Positions 32,959-34,167 of a stretch of 34,705 bases of DNA are shown in pieces. Source of the DNA: Candidatus Bipolaricaulota bacterium (GTDB taxonomy: Bacteria; Bipolaricaulota; Bipolaricaulia; UBA7950; UBA9294); contig JAPLGE010000071.1 in NCBI GenBank assembly GCA_026390315.1, forward strand, positions 1 to 34,705. The letters run 5' to 3'. The position numbers were made by a program, and so were the translations under genes. Numbering within the stretch: the first letter of the stretch is position 1; every line of letters starts with the position of its first letter. The notes below the pieces were generated by a model. It ran no database searches. It was not told the origin of the DNA and saw only the letters and a list, made by a program, of their open reading frames with translations.

Positions 32959-34167
32959 CTACTCGATGATCTTGGTCACGACGCCGGCACCGACCGTGCG
33001 GCCTCCCTCGCGGATCGCGAAGCGAAGCCCTTCCTGCATGGCGATGTGGGTCATCAGCTCGCCCACGACCTTAAGGTGGTCGCCCGGCATCACCATCTCC
33101 ACGCCCTCGGGGAGGTGGACCGAACCGGTCACGTCCGTGGTGCGGAAGAAGAACTGCGGCCGGTAGCCATCGAAGAACGGCGTGTGGCGCCCGCCCTCGT
33201 CCTTGGTCAGGATGTAGACCTCGCCCTCGAACTTGGTGTGCGGGGTGATCGACTTCGGCGCCGCGAGAACCTGACCGCGCTCGATCTGGTCCTTCTCCAC
33301 GCCGCGCAGGAGGATCCCGACGTTGTCGCCGGCGATCGCGTAGTCGAGGGTCTTGTTGAACATCTCCAGGCTCGTGGCGACCGTCTTCATGACCTGCTCG
33401 TGGATCCCGACGATCTCAACTTCCATGCCCGGAGTGATCTTCCCCTGCTCGACGCGGCCGGTGGCGACCGTCCCGCGGCCCTTGATGGAGAAGATGTCCT
33501 CGATCGGCATCTGGAACGGCTTGTCCTCCTCGCGCTCCGGGAGCGGGATGTAGCTGTCGACCGCCGCCATGAGGTCGAAGATCGGCTTGGCGTCCGTCGC
33601 CGGGTCGGGGTTCTGCATCGCCTTGAGGGCCGAGCCGCGGATGACTGGGGTCTCGTCGCCCGGGAACTCGTAGGCCGACAGGAGCTCGCGGATCTCCATC
33701 TCCACGAGGTCGATCAGGTCCGGGTCGTCGACCAAATCGACCTTGTTCAGGAAGACGACGATCGCCGGCACGTTCACCTGCTTGGCGAGGAGCACGTGCT
33801 CGCGCGTCTGGGGCATGGGGCCGTCCGTCGCCGCAACGACCAGAATCGCGCCGTCCATCTGCGCGGCGCCGGTGATCATGTTCTTGATGTAGTCGGCGTG
33901 TCCGGGGCAGTCGATGTGAGCGTAGTGACGGGTCTGCGTCGCGTACTCCACGTGGGCCACATTGACGGTGAGGATCTTCGTCGGGTCGCGGCGGAAGAGC
34001 TTCGCGTCAGCCTTGGCCACCTGATCGTAGGATCGCGCCACCGCCAGGCCTTGCTTGGCCAGAACCATGGTGATCGCTGACGTCAACGTCGTCTTTCCGT
34101 GGTCGATGTGCCCGATCGTCCCAATGTTCAGATGGGGCTTCGACCTCACGAATTGCTCTTTTGCCAT
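32959..34167 (-). CDS. tuf: Elongation factor Tu with atypical switch I
   Basis: GTPase delivering aminoacyl-tRNA to the ribosome, 402 residues. The P-loop GHIDHGKT (19-26), DCPGH (86-90), NKVD and GSALK motifs are normal, as are domains 2 and 3 ending [15 protein letters not shown]. The effector loop is not. Where EF-Tu has EEKARGITINT, this protein reads [17 protein letters not shown] (54-70), five residues longer and without the Arg-Gly. Only the Thr (Thr67) that would contact Mg2+ and the following Asn remain recognisable. AAGGAGG lies ten bases before the ATG. It is the first protein gene of the operon. Confidence 0.97.

Follow-up and report, generated by a model that had tools for sequence, protein, structure and literature searches.

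Elongation factor Tu (EF-Tu) carries amino acids to the ribosome, and in Escherichia coli the 16-residue stretch that spans its switch I (effector) loop reads DNAPEEKARGITINTS. This loop is regarded as near-universal, and its mechanism (Thr61, Gly59, Lys56 and Arg58) has mostly been worked out with EF-Tu from E. coli or Thermus. Thr61 contacts the gamma-phosphate, and switch I contacts nucleotides 1–3 and 73–75 of the tRNA (PMC6950810). F46, I49 and D50 lie on the GDP, K56 is methylated, and phosphorylation of T61 and T382 acts through K56 and R59 (PMC5851678). A switch I glycine is a ligand of a monovalent cation (PMC4342817), and the Lit protease cleaves EF-Tu between Gly59 and Ile60 (PMC3014915). 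Divergent EF-Tu proteins have been described in actinomycetes, where actEF-Tu2/EF-Tu3 is a second, stress-type copy (PMC4342817).

An EF-Tu with an alternative switch I loop

The window analysed here is a stretch of 34,705 nt (positions 1–34,705 of contig JAPLGE010000071.1, assembly GCA_026390315.1) from a Candidatus Bipolaricaulota bacterium. The features of its tuf region are as follows:

34232..34520, minus strand: tRNA-Thr(TGT), tRNA-Tyr(GTA) and tRNA-Thr(GGT), upstream of tuf, in an order shared by relatives of both loop types
32959..34167, minus strand: tuf, encoding EF-Tu (402 aa), from an ORF with a TIGR00485 match; the sole tuf found in the assembly
33958..34047, minus strand: codons 41–70 of tuf, the stretch where a comparison along the gene shows low nucleotide identity with L011, a canonical relative
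33955..34017, minus strand: alternative switch I loop, residues 51–71 (21 residues versus the canonical 16), between DQV (48–50) and HVEY (72–75)
33970..33978, minus strand: Lys64-Ile65-Leu66, replacing Arg58-Gly59-Ile60; the Gly59–Ile60 bond (the Lit site, with the monovalent cation-binding Gly) is absent
33967..33969, minus strand: codon of Thr67, the counterpart of Thr61 of E. coli, which is the switch I ligand of Mg2+ and the gamma-phosphate
32694..32767, minus strand: tRNA-Trp, downstream of tuf, followed by secE (32478–32666) and nusG (31374–32471)

The protein belongs to the EF-Tu equivalog family TIGR00485, matching the profile over its full length (residues 1–402 on profile positions 1–394) with 657.9 bits against a curated cut-off of 522.4, so that an earlier sequence-only reading was right to call it canonical outside switch I. 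It carries the G-domain motifs GH[IV]DHGKT, the switch I Thr, DCPGH and NKxD, which are invariant in an alignment (A1) whose rows were mostly picked through the loop motif. Like the canonical EF-Tu of E. coli and Thermus, it is a full-length, three-domain protein with the P-loop, the Mg2+-binding Thr, DCPGH and NKVD, and it shares their gene neighbourhood and, in a structural model, their closed-form fold.

Switch I is where it differs. The sequence-only reading had counted 21 residues instead of 16 between DQV and HVEY, and residues 51–71 indeed map exactly to 33955–34017. The five additional residues appear as a gap in the alignment with the closest PDB match, which is canonical, and the loop reads ...RRDPTKILT in place of IDNAPEEKARGIT. 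Its end is TKILTVNV where canonical EF-Tu has EEKARGITINT; this replacement stands as first reported, but calling the lost motif near-universal was too strong, given how common the variant is (see below). Nor is the loop 'rewritten' throughout: it is really different, yet Thr67 aligns exactly on E. coli Thr61, with Lys at Arg58, Leu at Ile60 and Asp at Glu55. Retained, therefore, are the Mg2+-binding Thr and counterparts of Arg58 and Glu55, together with the P-loop and DCPGH, whereas equivalents of Asp50, Lys56 and Gly59, and hence the Gly59–Ile60 bond, are absent. Canonical switch I has E-E-x-x-R-G-I-T within 16 residues from DQ[IV] to HVEY, and the window has R-D-P-T-K-I-L-T within 21, which places it in the group defined in this analysis by R-D-x-[TS]-K-[IVT]-[LVIM]-T (hereafter, the variant). 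A search for the degenerate loop motif gave a single occurrence in the window, and 100 shuffles yielded none.

Copy number and genomic context

The window tuf lies in the usual tRNA–tuf–tRNA-Trp–secE–nusG cluster and is the only tuf found in its genome assembly (91% complete, 223 contigs). A second tuf could be missing from an assembly of this completeness, but the relatives argue against this: the one-contig genomes G036 and G038 each carry a single tuf, and it is variant. Moreover, tuf is present once or twice in each of 20 named carrier genomes, every copy is variant, and a canonical partner was found in none of them. The one additional match, in genome G108 (53% identity over 57 residues), is too distant for a tuf of either loop type, and across the order of Hydrocarboniphaga, tuf scores fall into two separate bands that never occur together in one genome.

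These counts bear on whether the protein might be a specialised second EF-Tu, like actEF-Tu2/tuf3 of actinomycetes, rather than the main factor. Divergent EF-Tu paralogues do exist in some bacteria (PMC4342817), and the sequence-only reading had suggested that this copy might not be the main one, proposing a search for a second tuf. That search returned a single gene, which does not stand beside a standard tuf as a divergent duplicate would. Copy status is what sets the window protein apart from the actinomycete factor: it is the sole copy here, as in G036 and G038, occupies the housekeeping tuf locus, is canonical in the rest of its sequence and belongs to a group in which no named carrier has a canonical partner (n=20). 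The paralogue reading, which we consider very improbable, was thus rejected on copy number. The window tuf is the main, housekeeping EF-Tu of this bacterium and not a side copy.

Distribution of the variant loop

Among the nearest relatives, which were searched as whole genomes, the loop of the window occurs in frame in six loci of the same family, in two other genera (g10 and g13), and also in sampled loci of Bipolaricaulota family f4. One genome per GTDB species was scanned with a DNA pattern that degenerately encodes RRDx[ST]KILT....HVEY. This gave at least 118 loci, with about 20 phyla among the matches listed, and the loop was read in every listed locus. Those matches include Bipolaricaulota, Planctomycetota, Kiritimatiellota, Lentisphaerota, Verrucomicrobiota, Gemmatimonadota, Acidobacteriota, Aminicenantota, Nitrospirota, Spirochaetota (Brachyspira), Pseudomonadota (Hyphomicrobium, Hydrocarboniphaga), Chloroflexota, WOR-3, Omnitrophota, Elusimicrobiota and Fibrobacterota, among others. 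Gemmatimonas and Nitrospira are further carrier genera among them, and Hydrocarboniphaga effusa and Brachyspira pilosicoli are cultured carriers.

The source is a metagenome-assembled genome, and its fragmentation into 223 contigs might raise the suspicion of a sequencing, assembly or frameshift artefact. However, the loop is shared in frame by related genomes and by the two cultured species, and several genomes have it in both tuf copies. Because related genomes and many other phyla have the identical loop type, sequence error is excluded; we put the chance of an artefact at practically nil, and the earlier judgement that a frameshift was unlikely is borne out. The variant loop is real but not unique: many bacterial groups carry it, and at times it has been exchanged with the textbook version.

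The EF-Tus of Planctomycetota, Kiritimatiellota, Gemmatimonadota, Nitrospira, Brachyspira, Hyphomicrobium and Nevskiaceae share with the window the R-D-x-T-K-I-L-T core and its spacing to HVEY, but most of these variants have ASESQG where the window has ADAKLF. The AKADAK[LMN]FRRDATKILTV form of the window is common to Aminicenantota, Acidobacteriota, Chloroflexota and WOR-3 among the matches listed. Many Planctomycetota, unlike the window, have a shorter AKGGTVRDxTK form. Such shorter relatives (AKGGTVRDATKTVT and similar) are common in that phylum and present in Bipolaricaulota family f7, and up to four loop forms therefore occur within single phyla. Separately, three Planctomycetota genomes (G509, G526 and G537) each gave two clearly different tuf-like matches (e.g. 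82% and 74% to the query), which are possible divergent EF-Tu pairs.

The sequence-only reading had allowed that the loop might prove common, and already described, in relatives. Common it is; as to description, no paper on the variant loop was found in the text accessible to a literature search, although a study of planctomycete EF-Tu sequences by Jenkins and Fuerst (2001; cited in PMC3444138) may have noted it. The variant-loop sequences themselves have long been public. In a PDB search with a 66-residue variant query, no solved EF-Tu chain scored as variant, the best match reaching 92 bits with a 5-residue gap in the alignment.

Two discrete forms of switch I

With the invariant Thr as anchor, 232 distinct N-terminal segments were aligned; the Thr is present in every one of them. 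We sorted the segments by the presence or absence of Gly at position −2. The 68 canonical segments read I-D-x-A-P-E-E-x-x-R-G-I-T, with no exception at the lettered positions. The 164 variant segments read R-[D/G]-x-[T/S, rarely M, F or N]-K-[I/T/V]-[L/V/M/I]-T; this core is conserved by construction in half of them, because they came from the motif scan, but the 79 from outside the scan have the same pattern. Relative to the canonical form, the variants have Asp in place of Glu55 (Gly in about 2%), Lys in place of Arg58 and Leu or Val in place of Ile60, and they lack counterparts of Asp50, Lys56 and Gly59. At positions −7, −6, −3 and −2, none of the 232 segments mixes the two types.

Lineages might have converged independently on the same loop, rather than sharing it by exchange or common descent. 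The existence of several related forms (ASESQGRRD, ADAK.FRRD and the short AKGGTVRD) shows that loop length can change. Against it stand the near-identical strings in unrelated phyla and the lack of intermediates between canonical and variant segments, and we regard convergence as highly improbable. The favoured reading, which we consider very probable, is that the window protein is a housekeeping EF-Tu with one of at least two discrete, long-lived switch I forms.

Two positions outside the loop differ between the types in raw counts across lineages: residue 145 (33733–33735, after NKVD) is Leu in most variants and Met, Gln or Ala in canonical proteins, and at residue 185 (33613–33615) a Glu is lost in variants. 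As only two independent starred pairs were available for a phylogenetic test of this covariation with loop type, the test has no power. As a separate observation, locus L235 of Bipolaricaulota family f6 has DAPGH for DCPGH in switch II, together with a canonical-type loop (EEQERGITIAV).

Replacement of the loop within tuf genes

Trees were computed without the loop columns. In a tree of 165 EF-Tu proteins, seven changes between the types suffice. In the Bipolaricaulota tree, the window gene and genes of its own family with the canonical loop fall into one clade (f1+f2, 100/94), and a constraint that unites its group with the f4 variants is rejected (AU p = 0.027). Compared along its length with that of L011, the window tuf is mostly 78–97% identical in nucleotides, but only 42% at codons 41–60 and 51–70. 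Since the window gene sits with the canonical genes of its own family outside the loop, only the loop region (about 30–35 codons) differs in place; the tree placement and the drop in identity thus indicate that the loop changed while the rest of the gene was inherited vertically. The order tRNA-Thr, tRNA-Tyr, tRNA-Thr, tuf, tRNA-Trp is identical for both loop types in Bipolaricaulota, and one form has therefore replaced the other in situ.

Variant and canonical genes also group by taxon in Nitrospirota (95/93) and in Alphaproteobacteria (92/89). Judging from these trees, the loop change in Nitrospirota is, as in Bipolaricaulota, one inside a vertically inherited tuf, and the same is probably true of Alphaproteobacteria. 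The Nevskiaceae variants group with Gemmatimonadota (98/98), which suggests a whole-gene transfer from near Gemmatimonadota, although a tree that keeps Nevskiales together narrowly escapes rejection (AU p = 0.062).

The direction of change was judged by parsimony and one residue. In Bipolaricaulota, the members read of families f2–f5 and f7–f9 have variant forms, and the canonical loop of f6 and of part of f1 may therefore be the more recent arrival; the canonical genes of these last two families keep a Val after ITIN or ITIA, like that of the variant LTVNV. We more cautiously infer that in Bipolaricaulota the variant loop may be the older one, and that the canonical loop of the sister genera would have arrived by homologous recombination between tuf genes. 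Ancient duplication followed by differential loss and gene conversion could mimic such exchange between species.

Possible function of the variant loop

The sequence-only reading rightly stressed the functional weight of switch I, whose contacts with the gamma-phosphate (through Thr61) and with the tRNA are published (PMC6950810). An AlphaFold2 model of the window EF-Tu resembles closed, GTP-type structures (TM 0.86–0.88) more than open, GDP ones (about 0.53), and leaves the loop unresolved (pLDDT <50 at residues 54–71). The variant retains the Thr as well as a hydrophobic residue at −1, a basic one at −3 and an acidic one at −6, and should therefore still close over GTP. It would thus remain a GTP sensor, in which Thr67 may close onto Mg2+ and the gamma-phosphate, Leu66 may form the hydrophobic gate with Ile21, and Asp61 and Lys64 may stand in for Glu55 and Arg58. 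The longer N-terminal part of the loop might cover the nucleotide and the aminoacyl-tRNA acceptor end in a different way. From the residues lost, we predict that K56 methylation and the Lit site would be absent and that the cation geometry would differ. Altered GTPase kinetics, as suggested by the sequence-only reading, would be a further possible consequence. A compensating EF-Ts, also raised there, found no backing in the presence and size of EF-Ts and was discarded: neither differs with loop type, and the protein is short (about 200 aa) whichever loop a relative has.

One way in which the loop type could be kept and exchanged is through altered exposure to loop-directed attack, as by Lit-type proteases, with regulation based on K56 and R58 also gone. 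The published Lit cut falls between Gly59 and Ile60 (PMC3014915), the variant loop lacks both Gly59 and Lys56, and discrete forms swapped in place more than once would suit selection driven by an antagonist. Yet the Lit family (PF10463) had no match in 100 Bipolaricaulota genomes, where the control was equally silent, and neutral persistence would account for the pattern equally well; we consider this explanation unlikely. A broader proposal is speculative and rather improbable: bacterial EF-Tu would exist in two mutually exclusive switch I types with different GTP, cation and tRNA contacts, and the loop would pass as a module from one tuf gene to another, perhaps driven by proteases or toxins that recognise the canonical RGITI site.

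A second form of switch I that serves as the housekeeping one in lineages of about 20 phyla (among the matches listed) and has been swapped in place amounts to a set of natural experiments on the loop contacts that the GTPase needs, and the cultured carriers make it testable. It is also relevant to drugs or defence proteases directed against the loop and to the use of EF-Tu in phylogenies.

Other features of the window

The NusG encoded downstream of tuf (31374–32471, minus strand) is unusually long at 365 aa, roughly double the normal size, and an apparent large insertion separates its N-terminal start (KKWYAIQTYAGSE) from the core, which contains LFPGYVFCRL. A comparable insert is present in NusG of Thermotoga. 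Elsewhere in the window, two related-looking ORFs (1051–3642 and 12193–14607, both on the minus strand; 863 and 804 aa) resemble glycoside phosphorylases, and amid them lie a peptide/sugar-type ABC transporter set (5635–11192) and a LacI-type regulator (3605–4780, minus strand).
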